Assembly: GCF_041381155.1 (NCBI RefSeq)
Contig: NC_091146.1
Span: 496,001 to 560,000 of the forward strand
Direction: 5' to 3'
Source of the DNA: Argopecten irradians
Lineage: Eukaryota > Mollusca > Bivalvia > Pectinida > Pectinidae
DNA: 64,000 nt
In this document: piece by piece, positions 2,298 to 63,592 of the stretch
Position numbering within the stretch: the stretch's first letter is position 1
Layout of the letters: every line of letters begins with the position of its first letter
Notes under the pieces: generated by a model
The model's input: only the letters and a program-made list of their open reading frames with translations
Databases searched by the model: none
What the model was told of the DNA's origin: nothing
Position numbers and translations under genes: made by a program

Positions 2298-2507
2298 AGA
2301 TTAAGCATGTTTACATTCGTTCTACCACAGAAAATTACATCACAATGCAGCTATACCATATGGTAAGATAAACATATAATGTAATTATTACCGGGTATGT
2401 AAGATACCTGCAATATCAATGTAATGTGATGTATAAAAGTATTACAAGTTGAATTGTGTTATATATCGAAAGAAGCTTGGAATCAGTCATTTTTATACAT
2501 AATTTAA

Positions 2508-3947: not shown

Positions 3948-4403
3948 TATATCAAGTGCTCCATAACAGCTACTTTGAAATATTGTGACTTATTGTTTTG
4001 TCTTTCTTTAATCTTAGTGTAAATGTTTCTTATCGTTAAATGAACACTTATTGATTATTTTTTAATTTTAAAAGCATAGCTAAGATGTTCAAATGAAATG
4101 AAGAATTAGGTGAAAAATAAAGTAAACAATACTTGTATATATGTTATATGTAACTCTTTCTTTTAAATAGATCTCCATTCATTATGCCAGTGGGAAGAGG
4201 ACAGAGTTGGTCATCGATGAAATGCAAACAAAAATTTGTAAGGCAATCTTCAGAGGGAAATATGTTGCAAGATGCATTACTGATATCTTAATTAAGACAG
4301 ATGCTGAGACAGTAGTCAAAGCAAGCACACGTTTAATTTCAGAAGAAAGCAAGGCATTGTGTAAACGTGGCTCAGGTTCCATTTTACAAGATAAATCATA
4401 TGA

Positions 4404-25960: not shown

Positions 25961-26954
25961 TGTTTGTTTGTTTGTTTGTTTGAGTTTTACGGCCCATCGA
26001 CAACTAAGGTCATTTAGGGCCAAACTACAAGTCATGCATTAATATCAGGATAAAAGTTCAGGGTAAGAAAAAGCAAGTAAGGACTAAAACACAGATTGTA
26101 AACGTTAATTTGATAAAAAGAAGAAGGTTTGCATGGGATAAAATAAATTTGGCTAAAACACATGAGAAAACTCATGCACAATGTTGATGAAACGATGAAA
26201 TGTTGAGTTGTAACGATGTATGATGAGAAAACGTTCATATTTTGCTTAAAATACCGATGTCTTTGAGATAATTAAAAATACGATTATGTCTCACGGCATG
26301 AAACAAAGTGTACATGTCGGAGACATCGTAGTATTTATCTCGAATGTGTTTAAAATCAATACAATGCAATAAAATATGCTCCACTGTGAGAGGAGAATCA
26401 CATGCATGGCATGTAGGAGGATCCTCCCCTCTCAATAGATAGGAATGTGTAAAATATGTGTGTCCAGTTCGGAGCCGAGAGAGAACAACTTCCTCTCTGC
26501 GGTCTCTCCGACTGGACAGTTTAGGATTAAGTGTAGGTTGAATTTTAAACAGTTTATTGTTTGTTTCGGTAGACCACCTTTGTTGCCAATGGTGTTTGAT
26601 GGCTGACTGAATTGAAGGTTTGATGTCGGTGTATGGTAGTTTCAAATCTGTTTGTGCTAGGCGAAGAGCAGTCTTAGCTGCTTTATCAGCCTGTTCATTC
26701 CCCTTTATACCCACATGACTGGGAATCCAGAGATAAGTAATTTGAGTTTTAGAAGATAATCGAAATGTTCGGATTAAAAGATTTTGGATTAGAGTATTTC
26801 TAGGGCTTCTTGATTTCAAAGCCTGAAGAACTGAAAGAGAGTCTGAACAGATGATTGCCTTTTCAATGCGGTGTTCTTCGATGTGGTCAAGCGCCAGACC
26901 GATAGCACATGCTTCCGCAGAGAAAATGGAGGCAACATCTGGAAGTCGGATAGA
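25961..26954 (-). mobile_element. 5'-truncated LINE (RNase H end), minus strand
   Basis: Same family as 15386-17524. It retains only the RNase H domain from about LPDVASIFSAEACAIG onward and the C-terminal Cys/His motif, with a stop near 26235 (GILSKI) and the 3' (CAAA)n tail at 25961-25983. The coding frame is intact over this span; at the equivalent of the 16186 stop it has CGA (Arg). At 26951-26955 the LINE passes without a gap into the 67-bp satellite, with shared bases TAGAG at the junction. Confidence 0.85.
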
Positions 26955-32900: not shown

Positions 32901-35900
32901 AAAGACAGCTAGAGTTAATAATCCTATTGTTGTCACTGACCCACCACTCTCTGTTGTTAAACCAATAAAAGACAGCTAGGGTTAATAATCCTATTGTTGT
33001 CACTGACCCACCACTCTCTGTTGTTAAACCAATAAAAGACAGCTAGGGTTAATAATCCTATTGTTGTCACTGACCCACCACTCTCTGTTGTTAAACCAAT
33101 AAAAGACAGCTAGGTTTAATAATCCTATTGTTGTCACTCGCCCACCACTCTCTGTTGTTAACCAATAAAAGACAGCTAGAGTTAATAATCCTATTGTTGT
33201 CACTGACCCACCACTCTCTGTTGTTAAACCAATAAAAGACAGCTAGGGTTAATAATCCTATTGTTGTCACTGACCCACCACTCTCTGTTGTTAAACCAAT
33301 AAAAGACAGCTAGAGTTAATAATCCTATTGTTGTCACTGACCCACCACTCTCTGTTGTTAAACCAATAAAAGACAGCTAGGGTTAATAATCCTATTGTTG
33401 TCACTGACCCACCACTCTCTGTTGTTAAACCAATAAAAGACAGCTAGAGTTAATAATCCTATTGTTGTCACTGACCCACCACTCTCTGTTGTTAAACCAA
33501 TAAAAGACAGCTAGGTTAATAATCCTATTGTTGTCACTGACCCACCACTCTCTGTTGTTAAACCAATAAAAGACAGCTAGAGTTAATAATCCTATTGTTG
33601 TCACTGACCCACCACTCTCTGTTGTTAAACCAATAAAAGACAGCTAGGGTTAATAATCCTATTGTTGTCACTGACCCACCACTCTCTGTTGTTAAACCAA
33701 TAAAAGACAGCTAGGGTTAATAATCCTATTGTTGTCACTGACCCACCACTCTCTGTTGTTAAACCAATAAAAGACAGCTAGAGTTAATAATCCTATTGTT
33801 GTCACTGACCCACCACTCTCTGTTGTTAAACCAATAAAAGACAGCTAGGGTTAATAATCCTATTGTTGTCACTGACCCACCACTCTCTGTTGTTAAACCA
33901 ATAAAAGACAGCTAGGGTTAATAATCCTATTGTTGTCACTGACCCACCACTCTCTGTTGTTAAACCAATAAAAGACAGCTAGGGTTAATAATCCTATTGT
34001 TGTCACTGACCCACCACTCTCTGTTGTTAAACCAATAAAAGACAGCTAGGGTTAATAATCCTATTGTTGTCACTGACCCACCACTCTCTGTTGTTAAACC
34101 AATAAAAGACAGCTAGAGTTAATAATCCTATTGTTGTCACTGACCCACCACTCTCTGTTGTTAAACCAATAAAAGACAGCTAGGGTTAATAATCCTATTG
34201 TTGTCACTGACCCACCACTCTCTGTTGTTAAACCAATAAAAGACAGCTAGGGTTAATAATCCTATTGTTGTCACTGACCCACCACTCTCTGTTGTTAAAC
34301 CAATAAAAGACAGCTAGAGTATAATAATCCTATTGTTGTCACTGACCCACCACTCTCTGTTGTTAAACCAATAAAAGACAGCTAGGTTAATAATCCTATT
34401 GTTGTCACTGACCCACCACTCTCTGTTGTTAAACCAATAAAAGACAGCTAGAGTTAATAATCCTATTGTTGTCACTGACCCACCACTCTCTGTTGTTAAA
34501 CCAATAAAAGACAGCTAGGGTTAATAATCCTATTGTTGTCACTGACCCACCACTCTCTGTTGTTAAACCAATAAAAGACAGCTAGGGTTAATAATCCTAT
34601 TGTTGTCACTGACCCACCACTCTCTGTTGTTAAACCAATAAAAGACAGCTAGGAGTTAATAATCCTATTGTTGTCACTGACCCACCACTCTCTGTTGTTA
34701 AACCAATAAAAGACAGCTAGGTATAATCCTATTTGTCATGCCACACTCTGTTGTTAAACCAATAAAAACAGCTAGGTTAATAATCCTATTGTTGTCACTG
34801 ACCCACCACTCTCTGTTGTTAAACCAATAAAAGACAGCTAGGGTTAATAATCCTATTGTTGTCACTGACCCACCACTCTCTGTTGTTAAACCAATAAAAG
34901 ACAGCTAGAGTTAATAATCCTATTGTTGTCACTGACCCACCACTCTCTGTTGTTAAACCAATAAAAGACAGCTAGGGTTAATAATCCTATTGTTGTCACT
35001 GACCCACCACTCTCTGTTGTTAAACCAATAAAAGACAGCTAGAGTTAATAATCCTATTGTTGTCACTGACCCACCACTCTCTGTTGTTAAACCAATAAAA
35101 GACAGCTAGGTTAATAATCCTATATTATCACTGACCCACCACTCTCTGTTGTTAAACCAATAAAAGACAGCTAGAGTTAATAATCCTATTGTTGTCACTG
35201 ACCCACCACTCTCTGTTGTTAAACCAATAAAAGACAGCTAGGGTTAATAATCCTATTGTTGTCACTGACCCACCACTCTCTGTTGTTAAACCAATAAAAG
35301 ACAGCTAGGTTAATAATCCTATTGTTGTCACTGACCCACCACTCTCTGTTGTTAAACCAATAAAAGACAGCTAGAGTTAATAATCCTATTGTTGTCACTG
35401 ACCCACCACTCTCTGTTGTTAAACCAATAAAAGACAGCTAGAGTTAATAATCCTATTGTTGTCACTGACCCACCACTCTCTGTTGTTAAACCAATAAAAG
35501 ACAGCTAGAGTTAATAATCCTATTGTTGTCACTGACCCACCACTCTCTGTTGTTAAACCAATAAAAGACAGCTAGAGTTAATAATCCTATTGTTGTCACT
35601 GACCCACCACTCTCTGTTGTTAAACCAATAAAAGACAGCTAGAGTTAATAATCCTATTGTTGTCACTGACCCACCACTCTCTGTTGTTAAACCAATAAAA
35701 GACAGCTAGAGTTAATAATCCTATTGTTGTCACTGGCCCACCACTCTCTGTTGTTAAACCAATAAAAGACAGCTAGAGTTAATAATCCTATTGTTGTCAC
35801 TGACCCACCACTCTCTGTTGTTAAACCAATAAAAGACAGCTAGAGTTAATAATCCTATTGTTGTCACTGACCCACCACTCTCTGTTGTTAAACCAATAAA

Positions 35901-38900
35901 AGACAGCTAGGGTTAATAATCCTATTGTTGTCACTGACCCACCACTCTCTGTTGTTAAACCAATAAAAGACAGCTAGGGTTAATAATCCTATTGTTGTCA
36001 CTGACCCACCACTCTCTGTTGTTAAACCAATAAAAGACAGCTAGAGTTAATAATCCTATTGTTGTCACTGACCCACCACTCTCTGTTGTTAAACCAATAA
36101 AAGACAGCTAGGTTAATAATCCTATTGTTGTCACTGACCCACCACTCTCTGTTGTTAAACCAATAAAAGACAGCTAGGTTAATAATCCTATTGTTGTCAC
36201 TGACCCACCACTCTCTGTTGTTAAACCAATAAAAGACAGCTAGGGTTAATAATCCTATTGTTGTCACTGACCCACCACTCTCTGTTGTTAAACCAATAAA
36301 AGACAGCTAGGGTTAATAATCCTATTGTTGTCACTGACCCACCACTCTCTGTTGTTAAACCAATAAAAGACAGCTAGGGTTAATAATCCTATTGTTGTCA
36401 CTGACCCACCACTCTCTGTTGTTAAACCAATAAAAGACAGCTAGGTTAATAATCCTATTGTTGTCACTGACCCACCACTCTCTGTTGTTAAACCAATAAA
36501 AGACAGCTAGGGTTAATAATCCTATTGTTGTCACTGACCCACCACTCTCTGTTGTTAAACCAATAAAAGACAGCTAGGGTTAATAATCCTATTGTTGTCA
36601 CTGACCCACCACTCTCTGTTGTTAAACCAATAAAAGACAGCTAGGGTTAATAATCCTATTGTTGTCACTGACCCACCACTCTCTGTTGTTAAACCAATAA
36701 AAGACAGCTAGGGTTAATAATCCTATTGTTGTCACTGACCCACCACTCTCTGTTGTTAAACCAATAAAAGACAGCTAGAGTTAATAATCCTATTGTTGTC
36801 ACTGACCCACCACTCTCTGTTGTTAAACCAATAAAAGACAGCTAGGGTTAATAATCCTATTGTTGTCACTGACCCACCACTCTCTGTTGTTAAACCAATA
36901 AAAGACAGCTAGGTTAATAATCCTATTGTTGTCACTGACCCACCACTCTCTGTTGTTAAACCAATAAAAGACAGCTAGGGTTAATAATCCTATTGTTGTC
37001 ACTGACCCACCACTCTCTGTTGTTAAACCAATAAAAGACAGCTAGAGTTAATAATCCTATTGTTGTCACTGACCCACCACTCTCTGTTGTTAAACCAATA
37101 AAAGACAGCTAGGGTTAATAATCCTATTGTTGTCACTGACCCACCACTCTCTGTTGTTAAACCAATAAAAGACAGCTAGAGTTAATAATCCTATTGTTGT
37201 CACTGACCCACCACTCTCTGTTGTTAAACCAATAAAAGACAGCTAGAGTTAATAATCCTATTGTTGTCACTGACCCACCACTCTCTGTTGTTAAACCAAT
37301 AAAAGACAGCTAGGGTTAATAATCCTATTGTTGTCACTGACCCACCACTCTCTGTTGTTAAACCAATAAAAGACAGCTAGAGTTAATAATCCTATTGTTG
37401 TCACTGACCCACCACTCTCTGTTGTTAAACCAATAAAAGACAGCTAGAGTTAATAATCCTATTGTTGTCACTGACCCACCACTCTCTGTTGTTAAACCAA
37501 TAAAAGACAGCTAGAGTTAATAATCCTATTGTTGTCACTGACCCACCACTCTCTGTTGTTAAACCAATAAAAGACAGCTAGAGTTAATAATCCTATTGTT
37601 GTCACTGACCCACCACTCTCTGTTGTTAAACCAATAAAAGACAGCTAGGGTTAATAATCCTATTGTTGTCACTGACCCACCACTCTCTGTTGTTAAACCA
37701 ATAAAAGACAGCTAGAGTTAATAATCCTATTGTTGTCACTGACCCACCACTCTCTGTTGTTAAACCAATAAAAGACAGCTAGAGTTAATAATCCTATTGT
37801 TGTCACTGACCCACCACTCTCTGTTGTTAAACCAATAAAAGACAGCTAGAGTTAATAATCCTATTGTTGTCACTGACCCACCACTCTCTGTTGTTAAACC
37901 AATAAAAGACAGCTAGAGTTAATAATCCTATTGTTGTCACTGACCCACCACTCTCTGTTGTTAAACCAATAAAAGACAGCTAGAGTTAATAATCCTATTG
38001 TTGTCACTGACCCACCACTCTCTGTTGTTAAACCAATAAAAGACAGCTAGAGTTAATAATCCTATTGTTGTCACTGACCCACCACTCTCTGTTGTTAAAC
38101 CAATAAAAGACAGCTAGGGTTAATAATCCTATTGTTGTCACTGACCCACCACTCTCTGTTGTTAAACCAATAAAAGACAGCTAGAGTTAATAATCCTATT
38201 GTTGTCACTGACCCACCACTCTCTGTTGTTAAACCAATAAAAGACAGCTAGGGTTAATAATCCTATTGTTGTCACTGACCCACCACTCTCTGTTGTTAAA
38301 CCAATAAAAGACAGCTAGGGTTAATAATCCTATTGTTGTCACTGACCCACCACTCTCTGTTGTTAAACCAATAAAAGACAGCTAGGGTTAATAATCCTAT
38401 TGTTGTCACTGACCCACCACTCTCTGTTGTTAAACCAATAAAAGACAGCTAGGGTTAATAATCCTATTGTTGTCACTGACCCACCACTCTCTGTTGTTAA
38501 ACCAATAAAAGACAGCTAGGGTTAATAATCCTATTGTTGTCACTGACCCACCACTCTCTGTTGTTAAACCAATAAAAGACAGCTAGGGTTAATAATCCTA
38601 TTGTTGTCACTGACCCACCACTCTCTGTTGTTAAACCAATAAAAGACAGCTAGTATGATTAACATAAAAGACAGCTAGTTAATAATCCTATTGTTGTCAC
38701 TGACCCACCACTCTCTGTTGTTAAACCAATAAAAGACAGCTAGGGTTAATAATCCTATTGTTGTCACTGACCCACCACTCTCTGTTGTTAAACCAATAAA
38801 AGACAGCTAGGGTTAATAATCCTATTGTTGTCACTGACCCACCACTCTCTGTTGTTAAACCAATAAAAGACAGCTAGGGTTAATAATCCTATTGTTGTCA

Positions 38901-41900
38901 CTGACCCACCACTCTCTGTTGTTAAACCAATAAAAGACAGCTAGGGTTAATAATCCTATTGTTGTCACTGACCCACCACTCTCTGTTGTTAAACCAATAA
39001 AAGACAGCTAGGGTTAATAATCCTATTGTTGTCACTGACCCCACCACTCTCTGTTGTTAAACCAATAAAAACAGCTAGGGTTAATAATCCTATTGTTGTC
39101 ACTGACCCACCACTCTCTGTTGTTAAACCAATAAAAGACAGCTAGAGTTAATAATCCTATTGTTGTCACTGACCCACCACTCTCTGTTGTTAAACCAATA
39201 AAAGACAGCTAGAGTTAATAATCCTATTGTTGTCACTGACCCACCACTCTCTGTTGTTAAACCAATAAAAGACAGCTAGAGTTAATAATCCTATTGTCGT
39301 CACTGACCCACATTCTCTGTTGTTAAACCAATAAAAGACAGCTAGAGTTAATAATCCTATTGTTGTCACTGACCCACCACTCTCTGTTGTTAAACCAATA
39401 AAAGACAGCTAGGGTTAATAATCCTATTGTTGTCACTGACCCACCACTCTCTGTTGTTAAACCAATAAAAGACAGCTAGAGTTAATAATCCTATTGTTGT
39501 CACTGACCCACCACTCTCTGTTGTTAAACCAATAAAAGACAGCTAGAGTTAATAATCCTATTGTTGTCACTGACCCACCACTCTCTGTTGTTAAACCAAT
39601 AAAAGACAGCTAGGGTTAATAATCCTATTGTTGTCACTGACCCACCACTCTCTGTTGTTAAACCAATAAAAGACAGCTAGGGTTAATAATCCTATTGTTG
39701 TCACTGACCCACCACTCTCTGTTGTTAAACCAATAAAAGACAGCTAGAGTTAATAATCCTATTGTTGTCACTGACCCACCATCTCTCTGTTGTTAAACCA
39801 ATAAAAGACAGCTAGAGTTAATAATCCTATTGTTGTCACTGACCCACCACTCTCTGTTGTTAAACCAATAAAAAACAGCTAGGGTTAATAATCCTATTGT
39901 TGTCACTGACCCACCACTCTCTGTTGTTAAACCAATAAAAGACAGCTAGAGTTAATAATCCTATTGTTGTCACTGACCCACCACTCTCTGTTGTTAAACC
40001 AATAAAAGACAGCTAGAGTTAATAATCCTATTGTTGTCACTGACCCACCACTCTCTGTTGTTAAACCAATAAAAGACAGCTAGGGTTAATAATCCTATTG
40101 TTGTCACTGACCCACCACTCTCTGTTGTTAAACCAATAAAAGACAGCTAGAGTTAATAATCCTATTGTTGTCACTGACCCACCACTCTCTGTTGTTAAAC
40201 CAATAAAAGACAGCTAGAGATAATAATCCTATTGTTGTCACTGACCCACCACTCTCTGTTGTTAAACCAATAAAAGACAGCTAGAGTTAATAATCCTATT
40301 GTTGTCACTGACCCACCACTCTCTGTTGTTAAACCAATAAAAGACAGCTAGAGTTAATAATCCTATTGTTGTCACTGACCCACCACTCTCTGTTGTTAAA
40401 CCAATAAAAGACAGCTAGAGTTAATAATCCTATTGTTGTCACTGACCCACCACTCTCTGTTGTTAAACCAATAAAAGACAGCTAGAGTTAATAATCCTAT
40501 TGTTGTCACTGACCCACCACTCTCTGTTGTTAAACCAATAAAAGACAGCTAGAGTTAATAATCCTATTGTTGTCACTGACCCACCACTCTCTGTTGTTAA
40601 ACCAATAAAAGACAGCTAGAGTTAATAATCCTATTGTTGTCACTGACCCACCACTCTCTGTTGTTAAACCAATAAAAGACAGCTAGAGTTAATAATCCTA
40701 TTGTTGTCACTGACCCACCACTCTCTGTTGTTAAACCAATAAAAGACAGCTAGAGTTAATAATCCTATTGTTGTCACTGACCCCACCACTCTCTGTTGTT
40801 AAACCAATAAAAGACAGCTAGAGTTAATAATCCTATTGTTGTCACTGACCCACCACTCTCTGTTGTTAAACCAATAAAAGACAGCTAGAGTTAATAATCC
40901 TATTGTTGTCACTGACCCACCACTCTCTGTTGTTAAACCAATAAAAGACAGCTAGAGTTAATAATCCTATTGTTGTCACTGACCCACCACTCTCTGTTGT
41001 TAAACCAATAAAAGACAGCTAGAGTTAATAATCCTATTGTTGTCACTGACCCACCACTCTCTGTTGTTAAACCAATAAAACACAGCTAGAGTTAATAATC
41101 CTATTGTTGTCACTGACCCACCACTCTCTGTTGTTAAACCAATAAAAGACAGCTAGGGTTAATAATCCTATTGTTGTCACTGACCCACCACTCTCTGTTG
41201 TTAAACCAATAAAAGACAGCTAGGGTTAATAATCCTATTGTTGTCACTGACCCACCACTCTCTGTTGTTAAACCAATAAAAGACAGCTAGGGTTAATAAT
41301 CCTATTGTTGTCACTGACCCACCACTCTCTGTTGTTAAACCAATAAAAGACAGCTAGGGTTAATAATCCTATTGTTGTCACTGACCCACCACTCTCTGTT
41401 GTTAAACCAATAAAAGACAGCTAGGGTTAATAATCCTATTGTTGTCACTGACCCACCACTCTCTGTTGTTAAACCAATAAAAGACAGCTAGGGTTAATAA
41501 TCCTATTGTTGTCACTGACCCACCACTCTCTGTTGTTAAACCAATAAAAGACAGCTAGGGTTAATAATCCTATTGTTGTCACTGACCCACCACTCTCTGT
41601 TGTTAAACCAATAAAAGACAGCTAGAGTTAATAATCCTATTGTTGTCACTGACCCACCACTCTCTGTTGTTAAACCAATAAAAGACAGCTAGGGTTAATA
41701 ATCCTATTGTTGTCACTGACCCACCACTCTCTGTTGTTAAACCAATAAAAGACAGCTAGAGTTAATAATCCTATTGTTGTCACTGACCCACCACTCTCTG
41801 TTGTTAAACCAATAAAAGACAGCTAGGGTTAATAATCCTATTGTTGTCACTGACCCACCACTCTCTGTTGTTAAACCAATAAAAGACAGCTAGAGTTAAT

Positions 41901-44900
41901 AATCCTATTGTTGTCACTGACCCACCACTCTCTGTTGTTAAACCAATAAAAGACAGCTAGAGTTAATAATCCTATTGTTGTCACTGACCCACCACTCTCT
42001 GTTGTTAAACCAATAAAAGACAGCTAGAGTTAATAATCCTATTGTTGTCACTGACCCACCACTCTCTGTTGTTAAACCAATAAAAGACAGCTAGGTTAAT
42101 AATCCTATTGTTGTCACTGACCCACCACTCTCTGTTGTTAAACCAATAAAAGACAGCTAGGTTAATAATCCTATTGTTGTCACTGACCCACCACTCTCTG
42201 TTGTTAAACCAATAAAAGACAGCTAGGGTTAATAATCCTATTGTTGTCACTGACCCACCACTCTCTGTTGTTAAACCAATAAAAGACAGCTAGAGTTAAT
42301 AATCCTATTGTTGTCACTGGCCCACCACTCTCTGTTGTTAAACCAATAAAAGACAGCTAGAGTTAATAATCCTATTGTTGTCACTGACCCACCACTCTCT
42401 GTTGTTAAACCAATAAAAGACAGCTAGAGTTAATAATCCTATTGTTGTCACTGACCCACCACTCTCTGTTGTTAAACCAATAAAAGACAGCTAGAGTTAA
42501 TAATCCTATTGTTGTCACTGACCCACCACTCTCTGTTGTTAAACCAATAAAAGACAGCTAGAGTTAATAATCCTATATTGTCACTGACCCACCACTCTCT
42601 GTTGTTAAACCAATAAAAGACAGCTAGAGTTAATAATCCTATTGTTGTCACTGACCCACCACTCTCTGTTGTTAAACCAATAAAAGACAGCTAGAGTTAA
42701 TAATCCTATTGTTGTCACTGACCCACCACTCTCTGTTGTTATACCAATAAAAGACAGCTAGAGTTAATAATCCTATTGTTGTCACTGACCCACCACTCTC
42801 TGTTGTTAAACCAATAAAAGACAGCTAGAGTTAATAATCCTATTGTTGTCACTGACCCACCACTCTCTGTTGTTAAACCAATAAAAGACAGCTAGGGTTA
42901 ATAATCCTATTGTAGTCACTGACCCACCACTCTCTGTTGTTATACCAATAAAAGACAGCTAGAGTTAATACTCCTATTGTAGTCACTGACCCACCACTCT
43001 CTGTTGTTAAACCAATAAAAGACAGCTAGAGTTAATAATCCTATTGTTGTCACTGACCCACCACTCTCTGTTGTTAAACCAATAAAAGACAGCTAGAGTT
43101 AATAATCCTATTGTTGTCACTGACCCACCACTCTCTGTTGTTAAACCAATAAAAGACAGCTAGGGTTAATAATCCTATTGTAGTCACTGACCCACCACTC
43201 TCTGTTGTTAAACCAATAAAAGACAGCTAGAGTTAATAATCCTATTGTTGTCACTGACCCACCACTCTCTGTTGTTAAACCAATAAAAGACAGCTAGGGT
43301 TAATAATCCTATTGTTGTCACTGACCCACCACTCTCTGTTGTTAAACCAATAAAAGACAGCTAGAGTTAATAATCCTATTGTTGTCACTGACCCACCACT
43401 CTCTGTTGTTAAACCAATAAAAGACAGCTAGAGTTAATAATCCTATTGTTGTCACTGACCCACCACTCTCTGTTGTTAAACCAATAAAAGACAGCTAGGG
43501 TTAATAATCCTATTGTTGTCACTGACCCACCACTCTCTGTTGTTAAACCAATAAAAGACAGCTAGAGTTAATAATCCTATTGTTGTCACTGGCCCACCAC
43601 TCTCTGTTGTTAAACCAATAAAAGACAGCTAGGGTTAATAATCCTATTGTTATCACTGACCCACCACTCTCTGTTGTTAAACCAATAAAAGACAGCTAGA
43701 GTTAATAATCCTATTGTTGTCACTGACCCACCACTCTCTGTTGTTAAACCAATAAAAGACAGCTAGGGTTAATAATCCTATTGTTGTCACTGACCCACCA
43801 CTCTCTCTGTTGTTAAACCAATAAAAGACAGCTAGAGTTAATAATCCTATATTGTCACTGACCCACCACTCTCTGTTGTTAAACCAATAAAAGACAGCTA
43901 GAGTTAATAATCCTATTGTTGTCACTGACCCACCACTCTCTGTTGTTAAACCAATAAAAGACAGCTAGGGTTAATAATCCTATTGTTGTCACTGACCCAC
44001 CACTCTCTGTTGTTAAACCAATAAAAGACAGCTAGAGTTAATAATCCTATTGTTGTCACTGACCCACCACTCTCTGTTGTTAAACCAATAAAAGACAGCT
44101 AGAGTTAATAATCCTATTGTTGTCACTGACCCACCACTCTCTGTTGTTAAACCAATAAAAGACAGCTAGAGTTAATAATCCTATTGTTGTCACTGACCCA
44201 CCACTCTCTGTTGTTAAACCAATAAAAGACAGCTAGAGTTAATACTCCAATTGTTGTCACTGACCCACCACTCTCTGTTGTTAAACCAATAAAAGACAGC
44301 TAGAGTTAATAATCCTATTGTTGTCACTGACCCACCACTCTCTGTTGTTAAACCAATAAAAGACAGCTAGAGTTAATAATCCTATTGTTGTCACTGACCC
44401 ACCACTCTCTGTTGTTAAACCAATAAAAGACAGCTAGGGTTAATAATCCTATTGTTGTCACTGACCCACCACTCTCTGTTGTTAAACCAATAAAAGACAG
44501 CTAGGGTTAATAATCCTATTGTTGTCACTGACCCACCACTCTCTGTTGTTAAACCAATAAAAGACAGCTAGGGTTAATAATCCTATTGTTGTCACTGACC
44601 CACCACTCTCTGTTGTTAAACCAATAAAAGACACAGCTAGGGTTAATAATCCTATTGTTGTCACTGACCCACCACTCTCTGTTGTTAAACCAATAAAAGA
44701 CAGCTAGAGTTAATAATCCTATTGTTGTCACTGACCCACCACTCTCTGTTGTTAAACCAATAAAAGACAGCTAGAGTTAATAATCCTATTGTTGTCACTG
44801 ACCCACCACTCTCTGTTGTTAAACCAATAAAAGACAGCTAGGGTTAATAATCCTATTGTTGTCACTGACCCACCACTCTCTGTTGTTAAACCAATAAAAG

Positions 44901-45491
44901 ACAGCTAGAGTTAATAATCCTATTGTTGTCACTGACCCACCACTCTCTGTTGTTAAACCAATAAAAGACAGCTAGAGTTAATAATCCTATTGTTGTCACT
45001 GACCCACCACTCTCTGTTGTTAAACCAATAAAAGACAGCTAGGGTTAATAATCCTATTGTTGTCACTGACCCACCACTCTCTGTTGTTAAACCAATAAAA
45101 GACAGCTAGAGTTAATAATCCTATTGTTGTCACTGACCCACCACTCTCTGTTGTTAAACCAATAAAAGACAGCTAGAGTTAATAATCCTATTGTTGTCAC
45201 TGACCCACCACTCTCTGTTGTTAAACCAATAAAAGACAGCTAGAGTTAATAATCCTATTGTTGTCACTGACCCACCACTCTCTGTTGTTAAACCAATAAA
45301 AGACAGCTAGGGTTAATAATCCTATTGTTGTCACTGACCCACCACTCTCTGTTGTTATACCAATAAAAGACAGCTAGAGTTAATAATCCTATTGTTGTCA
45401 CTGACCCACCACTCTCTGTTGTTAAACCAATAAAAGACAGCTAGGGTTAATAATCCTATTGTTGTCACTCGCCCACCACTCACCGTTGTTA
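26955..45491. repeat. 67-bp satellite array, about 277 monomers
   Basis: The monomer begins GTTAATAATCCTATTGTTG and ends ACCAATAAAAGACAGCTAG plus one variable base. Monomers are almost identical. The main variation is the base before GTTAATAA: G, A, or deleted (66-bp form). Rare variants include TGTAGTCACTG (only 42.9-43.2 kb), CACTGGCCC (35.7, 42.3, 43.6 kb), CACTCGCCC (33.1 kb and the right edge) and damaged monomers at 34.72-34.78 and 38.65-38.69 kb. On the minus strand a 66-bp monomer is open and gives short open frames with REWWVSDNNRIIN, but 67-bp monomers shift frame, so it is not a gene. The left edge abuts a truncated LINE; on the right it decays into unique sequence. Confidence 0.97.
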
Positions 45492-46639: not shown

Positions 46640-47222
46640 TTTGCCCACCATGATCAGATAGTGGGCTTTCGTCCGTGGTGCGGTGTCCGTCGTCCGCCGT
46701 CCGATCGTCGTCCATCCGTAAACAATGCTTGTTACTGCTATATCTTGAGACGTACGCCACGAATATTTCTCAAATTGAAAATACATGGTCCTCTTGGTCC
46801 CTAGGAGTGTCATGCTGATTTTCAGACTGATCCGAAAATAAAGATTATCTTGAATTTTGATAATTGAAGTTTGTTACAGATATTTCTCAGAAAGTACCAA
46901 AGGTATTTGTCTCAAATTTGATGTGCAGGTTTCCCTAGGGCCCTCGCTGTGCATGATTCATTTTGGTTCAGATCGGTGAACAAGAGGGATGAAAGGCTGC
47001 GATCTGTGATATTGATAATTTGAAGTTTGTTACCACTATTTCTCAGAAAGTACTTAATGTATTTGTCTCAAATTTGATGTGCAGGTTTTCCTAGGGCCCT
47101 CGCTGTGCATGATGTATTTTGGAACAGATCGGTGATCAAGGCGGCCGATCGGCTGCCATCTGTGATTTTGATAATTTGAAATTTGTTACCGCTATTTCTC
47201 AGAAAGTACTAAAGGTATTTGT
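46640..47222 (-). mobile_element. Helitron-like element, inverted and truncated
   Basis: Reading on the minus strand, the 3' end is at the left: an imperfect hairpin GCCCACCATGATCAGATAGTGGGC (46643-46666), a tract complementary to GGACGG/CGGACG (46675-46715), then about three units of roughly 150 bp with AAATTTGA...TTTCTGAGAAATA-type sequence. It is related to the elements at 1-649 and 21749-23323 but more diverged. The 5' terminus is missing; similarity ends near AAAGGTATTTGTTAAAC. Confidence 0.6.
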
Positions 47223-53450: not shown

Positions 53451-53685
53451 GCCAAGTATTATACTCTTATGTATATAGAAGTTCTGATCGCCATCACTAC
53501 CCACCATCACCATACAGGAAGTTTATAAACAATAATAAGAATATTTGGTCATAATTTGGATATTTGGATATTTGGAAGACCCAAACAATATCAAAAATGG
53601 TGTACATGGGTGTACAGACACACACGCATACACACACATATATGTTTGGATATATAAATAAATCAGATAATTCGTTTGGTATTGA
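53451..53685. other. Spacer between two LINE 3' ends, with AC microsatellite
   Basis: Holds a CACACA/ACACAT run near 53618-53642 and a short GGATATTTGGATATTTGG repeat. It probably includes the 3' UTR of the minus-strand LINE ending at 53686. Confidence 0.45.
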
Positions 53686-56600
53686 TTAAAAGAATTGAAA
53701 TACATTTGAATATATTTGCATTAACTCATCTGGGCATTGTAAACATCCATTAAGTGCTACAGTAAGGGAATTATGTAAGTGGTTATGTAAGTGGTAATTT
53801 TCATATAGTTTCAGGGTATCAATTAATATTTGTCTTTCATTAATAAAGAGTGCACATTCGAATAAATAATGGAAAACGGTTTCTTGTGGGTATCCGCACT
53901 CGCAATTTGGAAAATCTAATAAGTGATCATTGAATAAGTCATACTTAAGATTACTAGCATTATTTCTAAGTTGGCAGAGAATGATGTTTAATTTTCTAGG
54001 TTCATAATTTTGAAAAGTGACAGTTACTTTAATACCTTTTTGTTCTATTTATTCATTAGGTTTATGAATTGTGAAAGAGTTGGTGCATCAATACGTGAAG
54101 TGTCTTATGTATTGTAATCATTTAATGTAGATGGAAAATAACTGGTAGAATAGGTGGATTAAATATTCTGTTTTCCCCCAATTGATATCTATTATTTATA
54201 TTGTCATTTATGTATGGATTTATAATTTCTTTTAAGTATGGTGGTGAATCAGAGTTTAAAATTTTATACATAAGAGATAACTTCTTTTTTGTCGCCTTTC
54301 GGCAAAGGTTTCCCACTGTAATTCATTATAAATTTTTGAATGTGAAGTACCCTACGTAGGCCAGTAATTATTCAAGCTGCATCTAACTGTATTGATTCTA
54401 AAAATGATTTTTTAAATTCTGAACAATTATCCAAGACTTCACTAACATATTCTAGAATTGGCCTAATATAAGTTGTATACATAATAATTAGAGATTTTCT
54501 ATCAAATGAGTTTTAAAGATTTCGCATGATGTTGATTCTTTTGTATGTTTTATTATAAGTATGCTGTATATGTTCTGACCACTTTCCTCCATCTTCACTG
54601 AAGGTTAGACCAAGGTGATTGTGACATCTTTTATTCGCTAATGGTTCATTTAGAAAGTCAATTGGTGGATGGTTAATTTTTTTTTACGACTAAAAGTTAC
54701 AGTTTCAGATACATTAGATTTCAAATCCCACTTTTTAGCCCAATTACTAACGTTTTGTAAATCACGTGAAAGTTTTTTCTGCTGCTTGAATTGGATTATT
54801 ATCTATAATTACATATATTGATGTGTCAGCAAAGAGTTTGATGTTGTTATCAACTTGGTCTGTTATGTCATTTATATATAAGAGAAACAAGAATGGTCCG
54901 AAAATAGATCCCTGAGGGATTCCAACATTTACAATGTTACAGTTTGAAAAATGACCTTCAGTGGGGACTCTTTGTTTTCTCGCACATAAATAGTCTTTAA
55001 ACCAAGAACATTTTTTACCTTTGATACCATATGATTCTAATTTATGCAGGAGGTCTGTGTGCCATACCCTATCAAAAGCCTTGCTTACATCACAGAATAC
55101 AAATCTTAATTCATTTCCCTTATCTAAATTACTGATGATTAAATGGCATATAGATAATAATTGATTACATGTAGTTGTAGAGTCACCAGGTAAGAAGCCG
55201 GATTGGTGTTTAGATATGATTTCATATTCAACTAGATAATTGTAAAAAAATTTAAAACTATTTTCTCTATGATTTTACTAAAGCAGGAAGTGATTGAAAT
55301 TGGTCTGTAATTAGTTGCATCATTGATTGAGCCTTTACCTTATAAATGGCATGAAGATTGGCCATTTTCCAAGACAAAGGATTTTTTCAGTTTGTATTGT
55401 TTTGTTAAATAGTAATGTTAGTGGTGTAGCGATAGAGGTTTGAAGTCTTTTGATTACTTTTGGAATCATTTCATCAGGACCAGGAGGTTTTTGATTAGCT
55501 GAGCAATCACATCTTGCTCTGTTATAATCATGTTATTTAACATAGAAGGAAATGGATCAGGAGGGAGGGGGGCTGTTCTAGATCAGGAGGGGGAGGCTGT
55601 TCTAGATCAGGAGGGGGAGGCTGTTCTAGATCAGGAGGGGGAGGCTGTTCTAGATCAGGAGGGGGAGGCTGTTCTAGATCAGGAGGGGGAGGCTGTTCTA
55701 GATCAGGAGGGGGAGGCTTTTTTAGATCAGGAGGGGGAGGCTGTTCTAGATCAGGAGGGGGAGGCTGTTCTAGATCAGGAGGGGGAGGTCTAGATCAGGA
55801 GGGGGACTGTTCTAGATCAGGAGGGGGAGGCTGTTCTAGATCAGGAGGGGGAGGCTGTTCTAGATCAGGAGGGGGAGTATGTTCTAGATCAGGAGGGGGA
55901 GGCTGTTCTAGATCAGGAGCGGGAGGCTGTTCTAGATCAGAGGGGGAGTGTTCTAGATCAGGAGGGGGAGGCTGTTCTAGATCAGGAGGGGGAGGCTGTT
56001 CTAGATCAGGAGGGGGAGGCTGTTCTAGATCAGGAGGGGGAGGCTGTTCTAGATCAGGAGGGGGAGGCTGTTCTAGATCAGGAGGGGGAGGCTGTTCTAG
56101 ATCAGGAGGGGGAGGCTGTTCTAGATCAGGAGGGGGAGGCTGTTCTAGATCAGGAGGGGGAGGCTGTTCTAGATCAGGAGGGGGAGGCTGTTCTAGATCA
56201 GGAGGGAGAGGCTGTTCTAGATCAGGAGGGGGAGGCTGTTCTAGATCAGGAGGGGGAGGCTGTTCTAGATCAGGAGGGGGAGGCTGTTCTAGATCAGGAG
56301 GGGGAGGCTGTTCTAGATCAGGAGGGGGAGGCTGTTCTAGATCAGGAGGGGGAGGCTGTTCTAGATCAGGAGGGGGAGGCTGTTCTAGATCAGGAGGGGG
56401 AGGCTGTTCTAGATCAGGAGGGGGAGGCTGTTCTAGATCAGGAGGGGGAGGCTGTTCTAGATCAGGAGGGGGAGGCTGTTCTAGATCAGGAGGGGGAGGC
56501 TGTTCTAGATCAGGAGGGGGAGGCTGTTCTAGATCAGGAGGGGGAGGCTGTTCTAGATCAGGAGGGGGAGGCTGTTCTAGATCAGGAGGGGGAGGCTGTT

Positions 56601-59600
56601 CTAGATCAGGAGGGGGAGGCTGTTCTAGATCAGGAGGGGGAGGCTGTTCTAGATCAGGAGGGGGAGGCTGTTCTAGATCAGGAGGGGGGAGGCTGTTCTA
56701 GATCAGGAGGGGGGAGGCTGTTCTAGATCAGGAGGGGGAGGCTGTTCTAGATCAGGAGGGGGAGGCTGTTCTAGATCAGGAGGGGGAGGCTGTTCTAGAT
56801 CAGGAGGGGGAGGCTGTTCTAGATCAGGAGGGGGAGGCTGTTCTAGATCAGGAGGGGGAGGTGTTCTAGATCAGGAGGGGGAGGCTGTTCTAGATCAGGA
56901 GGGGGAGGCTGTTCTAGATCAGGAGGGGGAGGCTGTTCTAGATCAGGGGAGGGGGAGGGAGTGTTCTAGATCAGGAGGGGGAGGCTGTTCTAGATCAGGA
57001 GGGGGAGGCTGTTCTAGATCAGGAGGGGGAGGCTGTTCTAGATCAGGAGGGGGAGGCTGTTCTAGATCAGGAGGGGGAGGCTGTTCTAGATCAGGAGGGG
57101 GAGGCTGTTCTAGATCAGGAGGGGGAGGCTGTTCTAGATCAGGAGGGGGAGGCTGTTCTAGATCAGGAGGGGGAGGCTGTTCTAGATCAGGAGGGGGAGG
57201 TGTTCTGTCAGGGGGGGGGCTGTTCTAGATCAGGAGGGGGAGGCTGTTCTAGATCAGGAGGGGGAGGCTGTTCTAGATGGAGGGGGAGGCTGTTCTAGAT
57301 CAGGAGGGGGAGGCTGTTCTAGATCAGGAGGGGGGGCTGTTCTAGATCAGGAGGGGGAGGCTGTTCTAGATCAGGAGGGGGAGGCTGTTCTAGATCAGGA
57401 GGGGGAGGCTGTTCTAGATCAGGAGGGGGGAGGCTGTTCTAGATCAGGAGGGGGGGCTGTTCTAGATCAGGAGGGGGAGGCTGTTTAGTTCTAGATCAGG
57501 AGGGGGAGGCTGTTCTAGATCAGGAGGGGGAGGCTGTTCTAGATCAGGAGGGGGAGGCTGTTCTAGATCAGGAGGGGGAGGCTGTTCTAGATCAGGAGGG
57601 GGAGTATGTTCTAGATCAGGAGGGGGAGGCTGTTCTAGATCAGGAGGGGGAGGCTGTTCTAGATCATCAGGAGGGGGAGTATGTTCTAGATCAGGAGGGG
57701 GAGGCTGTTCTAGATCAGGAGGGGGAGGCTGTTCTAGATCAGGAGGGGGAGGCTGTTCTAGATCAGGAGGGGGAGGCTGTTCTAGATCAGGAGGGGGAGG
57801 CTGTTCTAGATCAGGAGGGGGAGGCTGTTCTAGATCAGGAGGGGGAGGCTGTTCTAGATCAGGAGGGGGAGGCTGTTCTAGATCAGGAGGGGGAGGCTGT
57901 TCTAGATCAGGACTGTTAGATCGGAGGGGGAGGCTGTTCTAGATCAGGAGGGGGAGGCTGTTCTAGATCAGGAGGGGGGAGGCTGTTCTAGATCAGGAGG
58001 GGGAGGCTGTTCTAGATCAGGAGGGGGAGGCTGTTCTAGATCAGGAGGGGGAGGCTGTTCTAGATCAGGAGGGGGGAGGGTGTTCTAGATCAGGAGGGGG
58101 AGGGCTGTTCTAGATCAGGAGGGGGAGGCTGTTCTAGATCAGGAGGGGGAGGCTGTTCTAGATCAGGAGGGGGAGGCTGTTCTAGATCAGGAGGGGGAGG
58201 CTGTTCTAGATCAGGAGGGGGAGGCTGTTCTAGATCAGGGGGGGAGGCTGTTCTAGATCAGGAGGGGGAGGCTGTTCTAGATCAGGAGGGGGAGGCTGTT
58301 CTAGATCAGGAGGGGGAGGCTGTTCTAGATCAGGAGGGGGAGGCTGTTCTAGATCAGGAGGGGGGAGGCTGTTCTAGATCAGGAGGGGGAGGCTGTTCTA
58401 GATCAGGAGGGGGAGGCTGTTCTAGATCAGGAGGGGGAGGCTGTTCTAGATCAGGAGGGGGAGGCTGTTCTAGATCAGGAGGGGGAGGCTGTTCTAGATC
58501 AGGAGGGGGGGGGCTGTTCTAGATCAGGAGGGGGAGGCTGTTCTAGATCAGGAGGGGGAGGCTGTTCTAGATCAGGAGGGGGAGGCTGTTCTAGATCAGG
58601 AGGGGGAGGCTGTTCTAGATCAGGAGGGGGAGGCTGTTCTAGATCAGGAGGGGGAGGCTGTTCTAGATCAGGAGGGGGAGGCTGTTCTAGATCAGGAGGG
58701 GGAGGCTGTTCTAGATCAGGAGGGGGAGGCTGTTCTAGATCAGGAGGGGGAGGCTGTTCTAGATCAGGAGGGGGAGGCTGTTCTAGATCAGGAGGGGGAG
58801 GCTGTTCTAGATCAGGAGGGGGAGGCTGTTCTAGATCAGGAGGGGGAGGCTGTTCTAGATCAGGAGGGGGAGGCTGTTCTAGATCGGGGGGGGGAGGCTG
58901 TTCTAGATCAGGAGGGGGAGGCTTTCTAGATCAGGAGGGGGAGGCTGTTCTAGATCAGGAGGGGGAGGCTGTTCTAGATCAGGAGGGGGAGGCTGTTCTA
59001 GATCAGGAGGGGGATCAGGTCAGGAGGGGAGGCTGGGGAGGGGGAGGCTGTTCTAGATCAGGAGGGGGAGGCTGTTCTAGATCAGGAGGGGGGAGGCTGT
59101 TCTAGATCAGGAGGGGGAGGCTGTTCTAGATCAGGAGGGGGAGGCTGTTCTAGATCAGGAGGGGGAGGCTGTTCTAGATCAGGAGGGGGAGGCTGTTCTA
59201 GATCAGGAGGGGGAGGCTGTTCTAGATCAGGAGGGGAGGGGGGAGGCTGTTCTAGATCAGGAGGGGGAGGCTGTTCTAGATCAGGAGGGGGAGGCTGTTC
59301 TAGATCAGGAGGGGGAGGCTGTTCTAGATCAGGAGGGGGAGGCTGTTCTAGATCAGGAGGGGGAGGCTGTTCTAGATCAGGAGGGGGAGGCTGTTCTAGA
59401 TCAGGAGGGGGGAGGCTGTTCTAGATCAGGAGGGGGAGGCTGTTCTAGATCAGAGGGGAGGCTGTTCTAGATCAGGAGGGGGAGGCTGTTCTAGATCAGG
59501 AGGGGGAGGTGTTCTAGATCAGGAGGGGGAGGCTGTTCTAGATCAGGAGGGGGAGGCTGTTCTAGATCAGGAGGGGGGAGGCTGTTCTAGATCAGGAGGG

Positions 59601-62600
59601 GGAGGCTGTTCTAGATCAGGAGGGGGAGGCTGTTCTAGATCAGGAGGGGGAGGCTGTTCTAGATCAGGAGGGGGAGGCTGTTCTAGATCAGGAGGGGGAG
59701 GCTGTTCTAGATCAGGAGGGGGAGGCTGTTCTAGATCAGGAGGGGGAGGCTGTTCTAGATCAGGAGGGGGAGGCTGTTCTAGATCAGGAGGGGGAGGCTG
59801 TTCTAGATCAGGAGGGGGAGGCTGTTCTAGATCAGGAGGGGGAGGCTGTTCTAGATCAGGAGGGGGAGGCTGTTCTAGATCAGGAGGGGGAGGCTGTTCT
59901 AGATCAGGAGGGGAGTGTTCTAGGGGGAGGGGGAGGCTGTTCTAGATCAGGAGGGGGAGGCTGTTCTAGATCAGGAGGGGGGAGGCTGTTCTAGATCAGG
60001 AGGGGGAGGCTGTTCTAGATCAGGAGGGGGAGGCTGTTCTAGATCAGGAGGGGGAGGCTGTTCTAGATCAGGAGGGGGGAGGCTGTTCTAGATCAGGAGG
60101 GGGAGGCTGTTCTAGATCAGGAGGGGGAGGCTGTTCTAGATCAGGAGGGGGAGGCTGTTCTAGATCAGGAGGGGGAGGCTGTTCTAGATCAGGAGGGGGA
60201 GGCTGTTCTAGATCAGGAGGGGGAGGCTGTTCTAGATCAGGAGGGGGAGGCTGTTCTAGATCAGGAGGGGAGGCTGTTCTAGATCAGGAGGGGGAGGCTG
60301 TTCTAGATCAGGAGGGGGGAGGCTGTTCTAGATCAGGAGGGGGAGGCTGTTCTAGATCAGGAGGGGGAGGCTGTTCTAGATCAGGAGGGGGAGGCTGTTC
60401 TAGATCAGGAGGGGGAGGCTGTTCTAGATCAGGAGGGGGAGGCTGTTCTAGATCAGGAGGGGGAGGCTGTTCTAGATCAGGAGGGGGAGGCTGTTCTAGA
60501 TCAGGAGGGGGAGGCTGTTCTAGATCAGGAGGGGGAGGCTGTTCTAGATCAGGAGGGGGAGGCTGTTCTAGATCAGGAGGGGGAGGCTGTTCTAGATCAG
60601 GAGGGGGAGGCTGTTCTAGATCAGGAGGGGGAGGCTGTTCTAGATCAGGAGGGGGAGGCTGTTCTAGATCAGGAGGGGGAGGCTGTTCTAGATCAGGAGG
60701 GGGAGGCTGTTCTAGATCAGGAGGGGGGGGCTGTTCTAGATCAGGAGGGGGAGGCTGTTCTAGATCAGGAGGGGGAGGCTGTTCTAGATCAGGAGGGGGA
60801 GGCTGTTCTAGATCAGGAGGGGGAGGCTGTTCTAGATCAGGAGGGGGAGGCTGTTCTAGATCAGGAGGGGGAGGCTGTTCTAGATCAGGAGGGGGAGGCT
60901 GTTCTAGATCAGGAGGGGGAGGCTGTTCTAGATCAGGAGGGGGAGGCTGTTCTAGATCAGGAGGGGGAGGCTGTTCTAGATCAGGAGGGGGAGGCTGTTC
61001 TAGATCAGGAGGGGGAGGCTGTTCTAGATCAGGAGGGGGAGGCTGTTCTAGATCAGGAGGGGGAGGCTGTTCTAGATCAGGAGGGGGAGGCTGTTCTAGA
61101 TCAGGAGGGGGAGGCTGTTCTAGATCAGGAGGGGGAGGCTGTTCTAGATCAGGAGGGGGAGGCTGTTCTAGATCAGGAGGGGGAGGCTGTTCTAGATCAG
61201 GAGGGGGAGGCTGTTCTAGATCAGGAGGGGGAGGCTGTTCTAGATCAGGAGGGGGAGGCTGTTCTAGATCAGGAGGGGGAGGCTGTTCTAGATCAGGAGG
61301 GGGAGTGTTCTAGATCAGGAGGGGGAGGCTGTTCTAGATCAGGAGGGGGAGGCTGTTCTAGATCAGGAGGGGGAGGCTGTTCTAGATCAGGAGGGGGAGG
61401 CTGTTCTAGATCAGGAGGGGGAGGCTGTTCTAGATCAGGAGGGGGAGGCTGTTCTAGATCAGGAGGGGGAGGCTGTTCTAGATCAGGAGGGGGAGGCTGT
61501 TCTAGATCAGGAGGGGGAGGCTGTTCTAGATCAGGAGGGGGAGGCTGTTCTAGATCAGGAGGGGGAGTGTTCTAGATCAGGAGGGGGAGGCTGTTCTAGA
61601 TCAGGAGGGGGAGCTGTTCTAGATCAGGAGGGGGAGGCTGTTCTAGATCAGGAGGGGGAGGCTGTTCTAGATCAGGAGGGGGGAGGCTGTTCTAGATCAG
61701 GAGGGGGAGGCTGTTCTAGATCAGGAGGGGGAGCTGTTCTAGATCAGGAGGGGGGCTGTTCTAGATCAGGAGGGGGGCTGTTCTAGATCAGGAGGGGGAG
61801 GCTGTTCTAGATCAGGAGGGGGAGGCTGTTCTAGATCAGGAGGGGGAGGCTGTTCTAGATCAGGAGGGGGAGGCTGTTCTAGATCAGGAGGGGGAGGCTG
61901 TTCTAGATCAGGAGGGGGAGGCTGTTCTAGATCAGGAGGGGGAGGCTGTTCTAGATCAGGAGGGGGAGGCTGTTCTAGCTGTTCTAGATCAGGAGGGGGA
62001 GGCTGTTCTAGATCAGGAGGGGGAGGCTGTTCTAGATCAGGAGGGGGAGGCTTGTTCTAGATCAGGAGGGGGAGGCTGTTCTAGATCAGGAGGGGGAGGC
62101 TGTTCTAGATCAGGAGGGGGAGTATGTTCTAGATCAGGAGGGGGAGGCTGTTCTAGATCAGGAGGGGGAGGCTGTTCTAGATCAGGAGGGGGAGGCTGTT
62201 CTAGATCAGGAGGGGGAGGCTGTTCTAGATCAGGAGGGGGAGGCTGTTCTAGATCAGGAGGGGGAGGCTGTTCTAGATCAGGAGGGGGAGGCTGTTCTAG
62301 ATCAGGAGGGGGAGGCTGTTCTATGTTTCTAGATCAGGAGGGGAGGCTGTTCTAGATCAGGAGGGGAGCTGAGGGGGGAGGCTGTTCTAGATCAGGAGGG
62401 GGAGGCTGTTCTAGATCAGGAGGGGGGAGGCTGTTCTAGATCAGGAGGGGGAGGCTGTTCTAGATCAGGAGGGGGAGCTGTTCTAGATCAGGAGGGGGAG
62501 GCTGTTCTAGATCAGGAGGGGAGGCTGTTCTAGATCAGGAGGGGGAGGCTGTTCAGTTCGATCAGAGGGGGAGGCTGTTCTAGATCAGGAGGGGGAGGCT

Positions 62601-63592
62601 GTTCTAGATCAGGAGGGGGAGGCTGTTCTAGATCAGGAGGGGGAGGCTGTTCTAGATCAGGAGGGGGAGGCTGTTCTAGATCAGGAGGGGGGAGGCTGTT
62701 CTAGATCAGGAGGGGAGGCTGTTCTAGATCAGGGGGGGGAGGCTGTTCTAGATCAGGAGGGGGAGGCTGTTCTAGATCAGGAGGGGGAGGCTGTTCTAGA
62801 TAGGAGGGGGAGGCTGTTCTAGATCAGGAGGGGGAGGCTGTTCTAGATCAGGAGGGGGAGGCTGTTCTAGATCAGGAGGGGGAGGCTGTTCTAGATCAGG
62901 AGGGGGAGGTGTTTAGATCAGGAGGGGGAGGCTGTTCTAGATCAGGAGGGGGAGGCTGTTCTAGATCAGGAGGGGGAGGCTGTTCTAGATCAGGAGGGGG
63001 AGTTCTTAGATCAGGAGGGGGAGGCTGTTCTAGATCAGGAGGGGGAGGCTGTTCTAGATCAGGAGGGGGAGGCTGTTCTAGATCAGGAGGGGGAGTATGT
63101 TCTAGATCAGGAGGGGGAGGCTGTTCTAGATCAGGAGGGGGAGGCTGTTCTAGATCAGGAGGGGGGGGAGGCTGTTCTAGATCAGGAGGGGGAGGCTGTT
63201 CTAGATCAGGAGGGGGAGGCTGTTCTAGATCAGGAGGGGGAGGCTGTTCTAGATCAGGAGGGGGAGGCTGTTCTAGATCAGGAGGGGGAGGCTGTTCTAG
63301 ATCAGGAGGGGGAGGCTGTTCTAGATCAGGAGGGGGAGGCAATTGTTCTAGATCAGGAGGGGGAGGCTGTTCTAGATCAGGAGGGGGAGGCTGTTCTAGA
63401 TCAGGAGGGGGAGGCTGTTCTAGATCAGGAGGGGGAGGCTGTTCTAGATCAGGAGGGGGAGGCTGTTCTAGATCAGGAGGGGGAGGCTGTTCTAGATCAG
63501 GAAAAGAAGTTTCAATAGATGTAAAATAATCATTTAAAATTACAGCTTTATTAATTGGATGTTGTATACTGACTCCATCATGGATAATATAG
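53686..63592 (-). mobile_element. Second LINE type (CR1/L2-like), ORF split by a 24-bp minisatellite
   Basis: Minus-strand coding begins near 63590 (IHDGVSIQHPINKAVILNDYFTSIETSFPDLEQ), is interrupted by the minisatellite (63502-55553), and resumes as DPFPSMLNNMIITEQDV, PPGPDEMIPKVIK, the YRPISITSC-type motif (about 55300), FCDVSKAFDRVWH, GIPQGSIFGP (about 54910) and a catalytic site reading LFADTSIYV (about 54830), where one Asp of FADD is missing. A long C-terminal part contains NNRYQLGEN, CQLRNNASNLKYDLF and a C-x-C...ET..H...C motif, ending at TAA 53686-53688. Several frameshifts and stops interrupt it. The 5' end is truncated near 63592. The clade is uncertain; it differs from the RNase H LINE family. 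Confidence 0.7.
55553..63502. repeat. 24-bp minisatellite, about 330 units, inside LINE coding sequence
   Basis: The unit is GCTGTTCTAGATCAGGAGGG plus GGAG. Because 24 is a multiple of three, local runs stay open in several frames: PPPPDLEQ on the minus strand (for example 62896-63342), SRSGGGGC or DQEGEAVL on the plus strand. At both edges the minus-strand octapeptide continues in frame into the flanking LINE ORF (TSFPDLEQP at 63.50 kb, PPDPFPSM at 55.55 kb). Units are very uniform, with G-run length variants, 2-4-base losses (GGTGTT, GAGTATG) and a few scrambled spots (about 57200, 59010-59040, 59920, 62325-62370, 62555). It is not a real protein-coding gene. Confidence 0.95.

Follow-up and report, generated by a model that had tools for sequence, protein, structure and literature searches.

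Probable in situ birth of a 24-bp minisatellite from a single linker stretch in a LINE open reading frame

Introduction

Minisatellites are tandem arrays of units of ~10-100 bp and can extend to tens of kb. Haber and Louis (1998) reportedly proposed that minisatellites are born between short direct repeats, Jurka and Gentles (2006) are said to have described minisatellites derived from Alu elements, and a study of plant retrotransposons reportedly dealt with LTR elements carrying subrepeats in their non-coding parts. The origin of a minisatellite or satellite is usually inferred after its single-copy ancestor has been lost. According to the available text of two papers, birth by slippage or unequal exchange between short direct repeats, including repeats within transposons, is a published model (PMC3389668, PMC6947457). 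Satellites related to LINE ORF2, namely PROsat of Phodopus, Pvc 20 of seal and chicken HinfI/CR1, are listed in the part of PMC9659126 at hand, and the accessible portion of PMC5491262 describes CEB1, a quadruplex-forming minisatellite, as unstable in yeast. Here we analysed a 64,000-nt window of the Argopecten irradians genome (C13:496001-560000 of an 845.8-Mb assembly of 1508 contigs), which holds a 24-bp array inside a LINE copy, and compared it with other copies of the same LINE in the assembly.

Results

TRF reported a period of 24, 330.3 copies and 94% matches for the array (Table 1), in agreement with the initial annotation, which had recorded an array of ~8 kb with ~330 units of 24 bp. 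The exact anchor GATCTAGAACA occurred 316 times, and 250 of the 315 intervals between anchors were perfect units; by wraparound alignment the array contained 332 units, with 31 substitutions and 154 indel bases. The translated frames also bore out the peptide PPPPDLEQ, which had been given as the minus-strand reading of the unit GATCTAGAACAGCCTCCCCCTCCT. On the endonuclease side the edge of the array continued in frame into LNDYFTSIETSFPDLEQP (63537-63484), while the edge on the reverse transcriptase (RT) side ran on into the LINE sequence PPDPFPSMLNNMIITEQDV (55564-55508), followed by the match to Pfam RVT_1. LINE sequence was therefore recovered at both edges as claimed, but the single frame that the edges were said to share was not, since the edge peptides sit in different frames of the window. 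The final interval on the RT side was 26 nt, not 24.

Table 1. Positions of the arrays and of the parts of the LINE copy (window coordinates unless a contig is given)
Feature	Position	Strand	Basis or remark
24-bp minisatellite, ~330 units	55555..63502	-	TRF, unit counts and wraparound alignment; sense unit GATCTAGAACAGCCTCCCCCTCCT
Endonuclease-side LINE remnant, linker ...KAVILNDYFTSIETS	63503..63587	-	blastn of flank to fetched copies
RT side of the window LINE copy, with frameshifts and stops, 3' end incomplete	53451..55552	-	blastn pieces, frames
Reverse transcriptase stretch scanned (Pfam RVT_1)	54768..55220	-	RVT_1 E 2.8e-16, 151-residue piece
67-bp array, ~277 units	26951-45491		adjoins 5'-truncated RNase H LINE
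34-bp minisatellite, 43 copies	L010 (C16:31355000-31364900), ~31361.2-31362.7 kb of C16		copy also bears 68-unit array

The window LINE copy ends ~85 bp upstream of the array, at 63587; when this flank was compared by blastn with 12 fetched copies, 11 alignments started at 63587 and the remaining one at 63580. On the RT side, blastn pieces longer than 100 bp showed about 74-91% identity to the fetched copies, and of the two LINE domains the window copy itself retains the RT side alone (RVT_1). Endonuclease and RT were found together in one ORF of a sister family (Exo_endo_phos, 1e-12; RVT_1, 6.4e-32), and in the open sister ORF the linker lies at residue 415, with Exo_endo_phos at residues 20-216 and RVT_1 at residues 509-717. 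The array occupies the Pro-rich linker between the endonuclease and the reverse transcriptase of the LINE. The element, which may be CR1/L2-like, had 3' ends terminating in ...TTGGTTGAAATGAAA in three of four copies inspected, and a by-eye look for target-site duplications of the window copy gave none that was firm.

The genome was searched with the unit peptide (best 150 of 206 candidates scored) and with the joined flanks (best 150 of 318 candidates scored, most matches being to more distant sister families). In the peptide search, arrays appeared in the window and at two further sites, C9:43.22 Mb and C16:31.36 Mb. The C9 array lies between sequence from the endonuclease side of the LINE and RT sequence, and the RT side and upstream linker of the C16 array match those of the other array copies, indicating that each of the three arrays occupies the same point in the linker of a LINE copy. 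At least 13 places belong to the close family: eight hold one unit, one holds none, one holds two, and three hold arrays, which with 24-bp units repeated about 330 (window), ~168 (C9) and ~68 (C16) times are of minisatellite form. The clear one-unit copies number seven (C11:8.15, C11:8.25, C328, C844, C16:27.1, C8:20.28 and C7:10.57). The C7:10.57 copy stops just past its unit, the copies on C328 and C844 have a common breakpoint and may represent one insertion, and the C3:45.4 copy carries a single degenerate unit. The copy at C9:24.3 (L049) has lost the unit by an exact deletion between the TCCTGATC repeats, the copy at C16:23.9 Mb (L050) has two units, and L042, the most diverged copy measured, has one. 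Counting units in other copies was the check that the initial annotation had proposed, and the stretch proved to be present at the same position, mostly once; the suggested origin from a linker with one or two units is upheld by copies that hold zero, one, two or many units at a single homologous position. A whole-genome scan for the RT-side junction (<=3 mismatches) returned 10 places, including one in the C16 array, and a scan for the endonuclease-side junction at the same threshold returned 18, comprising 10 LINE copies, seven places in the window array and one on C14; such mismatch scans miss indels, including the window's own RT-side junction, and more family copies are possible. The C14 place (C14:23928731-23928756) is a stray match with three mismatches.

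In the sister family, at ~50% amino acid identity to the query, all 20 fetched loci contained a single copy of the homologous Pro-rich linker DLDPLPPPP. No direct repeat flanked DLDPLPPPP in the one sister linker checked. The median pairwise difference among sister copies was 2.8%, compared with about 4-11% within the array family (1.1% for the C328/C844 pair), so the sister copies are younger, and little weight attaches to the absence of arrays from them.

The one-unit copies read TCTCCTGATC-TAGAACAGCCTCCCCC-TCCTGATC-CATTTCC, with identical 8-9 bp spaced 24 bp apart. In L046 (C8:20280000-20289900), CTCCTGATC forms a 9-bp direct repeat at an offset of 24, and TCCTGATC also stands on each side of the unit in L043, L044 and L045. 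The 24-bp seed thus has the arrangement of the Haber-Louis model, a single unit with direct repeats of 5-10 bp at the spacing of the unit, and the reciprocal loss of a unit that the model entails is seen as the exact zero-unit state of L049. One LINE copy contained 40 direct repeats of at least 7 bp at offsets of 15-79, some of them inside an already doubled 34-bp stretch, yet just two sites in the LINE were seen expanded, indicating that direct repeats are insufficient alone. A quadruplex was predicted on the G-rich strand of every unit (ViennaRNA, RNA parameters); a quadruplex was likewise predicted for the sister linker, yet that linker is unexpanded.

The second expanded site, a 34-bp stretch, lies in the endonuclease part of this LINE. 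It is single in C11:8.15 and C9:24.3, doubled in C328, C844, C3 and C8, present in three to four copies in C9:43.2, and forms an array in the C16 copy (Table 1). In C8 the doubled stretch lies within a 1195-bp tandem of 3.6 copies; this tandem, at locus positions 1-4341 of L046, repeats the endonuclease half at 98%. A junction scan for the 34-bp unit (<=3 mismatches) found 45 junctions, all within these LINE copies. Since 34 is not divisible by three, the reading frame plays no part in this growth. By eye, the edges of the 34-bp seed share only ~2 bp, which is outside the 5-10-bp model, so that the direct-repeat model fails to explain this seed.

Relative to the perfect unit, substitutions per site amounted to 0.39% in the window array, 0.60% in C9 and 0.80% in C16, compared with 3.31%, 3.27% and 3.01%, respectively, for the RT-side flanks against a majority consensus of the aligned copies. 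The units are therefore ~4-8 times less substituted than their flanks, indicating that growth or homogenisation postdates insertion. Block duplications within the arrays were almost absent (one shared variant pair in the window, none in C16 and one pattern in C9). One alternative, which we regard as unlikely, is that an active LINE lineage with a pre-expanded linker existed and that the three array copies inherited it via retrotransposition. In the star-like copy tree, a single clade of array copies is not rejected (p-AU 0.138, lnL difference 2.31), in a test of low power in which the C9 row fills 18% of the columns; however, the array copies grouped together in none of 200 bootstrap trees, and recurrent unit variants differ between the arrays, with CATACTCC occurring four times in the window array and missing from the listed units of C9 and C16, and CCTCTCCC occurring seven times in C9 and once in C16. 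The low substitution of the units relative to the flanks also argues against inheritance, although homogenisation after insertion would give the same picture. Independence of the three expansions is favoured by these data, not proven.

It is likewise rather improbable that the length of the array and much of its unit variation reflect errors of assembly or consensus. Long reads often miscount C-runs, the units contain C-runs, and indels dominate the variation in all three arrays, with substitutions and indel bases numbering 31 and 154 in the window, 24 and 102 in C9, and 13 and 63 in C16. Against such an origin, three loci carry arrays in the same linker, differences in C-tract length alone account for just 18 of the 65 variant units in the window, and the 34-bp array in the C16 copy, with 28 substitutions and 6 indel bases, indicates that this locus is not generally indel-prone. 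The contrast between indel-rich 24-bp variation and substitution-rich 34-bp variation suggests that either a property of the unit or base-calling in C-runs is responsible.

An exact search of the whole 845.8-Mb assembly for head-to-tail unit junctions, in which mismatched junctions are uncounted, gave 98 forward and 295 reverse matches. The fetched loci contained 253 (window), 98 (C9), 41 (C16) and 1 (L050) of these junctions, so that 393 of 393 lie in LINE copies and no exact junction in the assembly fell outside this LINE family. Neither of the two outcomes that the initial annotation had named as contrary to its reading, other LINE copies generally lacking the sequence at this position or an array found mostly at unrelated loci, was encountered. 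Its view that a LINE ORF seeded an array in situ therefore stands, but not the designation as a satellite, a term for repeats that have spread to many loci irrespective of the source element: the junctions reside in four LINE copies, and the array is a minisatellite confined to copies of the LINE. Insertion of an independent satellite into the LINE, or the reverse, is thus very improbable. The window does contain further tandem arrays, one of which, the 67-bp array, adjoins a truncated LINE and served as a control for the same test. Its run into the RNase H reading frame suggested a second LINE-born array, a candidate that the genome search refuted. Among the 150 matches listed of 1696 candidates for a query of the 67-bp array plus LINE, only the window itself covers the unit part, and the other matches listed begin at residue 10 or 11 with 97-98%; the unit is therefore not LINE sequence, and this array is a satellite beside a LINE. 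The 67-bp case came out opposite to the 24-bp case, in which unexpanded copies hold the unit once at the homologous position, and its negative result demonstrates that the test supporting the 24-bp array can fail. Tandem arrays with periods of 146-161 bp were also seen at window positions 1-5600, 21851-23207 and 46857-47222, some with a common motif like CAAGATGGCTGCCTGGCGGCCATCTTG.

The array had further been described as grown in frame, which does not hold, as 47 of the 315 intervals in the window array are not divisible by three and PPPPDLEQ is spread over three frames (98, 92 and 69 occurrences), with more than 200 stops in every frame. The in-frame state is limited to the one-unit ancestor. 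That the repeats form a selected Pro-rich domain in a working LINE protein is scarcely credible, for although 24 is divisible by three and the longest open stretch listed reaches 333 residues, it is contradicted by these frame breaks and the use of all three frames, by the stops and frameshifts on the RT side of the window copy, by the 34-bp expansion, which breaks frame, and by the single occurrence of the stretch in the open sister ORFs shown.

The chromosomal positions of the copies were compared for the 11 that lie on large contigs, leaving out two on small contigs. For the three array copies the distance to a contig end is 0.56, 0.88 and 3.17 Mb, and for the eight other placed copies it is 7.4-26 Mb, bearing in mind that contig ends need not be telomeres. 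The chance that the arrays are the three copies nearest to the ends is 1/165, for an idea that arose post hoc and with two C11 copies that are perhaps non-independent.

Discussion

Overall, these results make it very likely that the array arose in situ, as a minisatellite within a dead LINE copy, from a 24-bp stretch between short direct repeats. The prevalence of one-unit copies, the single unit of L042 and the sister family suggest that the ancestral state was probably one unit. As a first step, slippage or unequal exchange between the 8-9 bp TCCTGATC repeats would duplicate or delete the 24-bp stretch. Doubled units would then supply long homology, on which slippage, break repair or unequal crossing-over could build an array of ~330 units. 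A short-loop quadruplex on the G-rich strand of each unit probably increases instability, and from the predicted folds a quadruplex may have had a role in the growth of this array.

The LINE family may hold two latent seeds, of 24 bp and 34 bp, with chromosome position deciding which copies expand, a possibility that we put forward tentatively and consider somewhat doubtful. If it is true, transposable elements would act as scattered primers that are made into arrays by subtelomeric recombination.

One genome displays the one-unit state, a loss product, a first duplication and arrays of ~68, 168 and 330 units at one position in a transposable element ORF. With these co-existing states and a sister family in which the stretch is single, it becomes possible to test directly how an array is born and what part chromosome position plays.

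Several described systems resemble this locus in part. In the Haber-Louis model, as related in the available text of Ahmed and Liang 2012 (PMC3389668), repeats of 5-10 bp flank a single stretch of a transposable element, and the gain or loss of one unit is followed by growth in situ, as appears to have happened here. Compared with the cases in that part of the paper, the present locus lies in a LINE ORF, offers 0, 1, 2, ~68, 168 and 330 units within one family, and reaches 8 kb. Alu minisatellites, as far as the same text covers them, are likewise seeded by short direct repeats within a transposable element, but they arise in a non-coding SINE and mostly have few units (Alu means 2.30-2.42; PMC3389668). 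PROsat, Pvc 20 and HinfI/CR1, in the portion of PMC9659126 at hand, also place LINE coding sequence in tandem repeats; there the satellite resembles part of ORF2, whereas the present array has remained in the element and can be compared with unexpanded copies. Tandem subrepeats are a source of satellites in plant retrotransposons as well, by the accessible part of PMC7004042, and in contrast to those LTR subrepeats the unit here belongs to a LINE ORF and has one ancestral copy. CEB1 shares a G-rich, quadruplex-forming unit with short loops, and its instability is a measured one in the text available to us, whereas the fold is a prediction here (PMC5491262). To judge from the parts of these papers at hand, LINE ORF2 pieces in satellites and minisatellites seeded by transposable elements are already in print (PMC3389668, PMC6947457, PMC9659126), and neither this LINE nor its unit was described in the titles and abstract starts returned by our literature searches, which were by topic and not unit-specific. 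Set beside these systems, the locus adds an unusually complete new example of a process that is already known.
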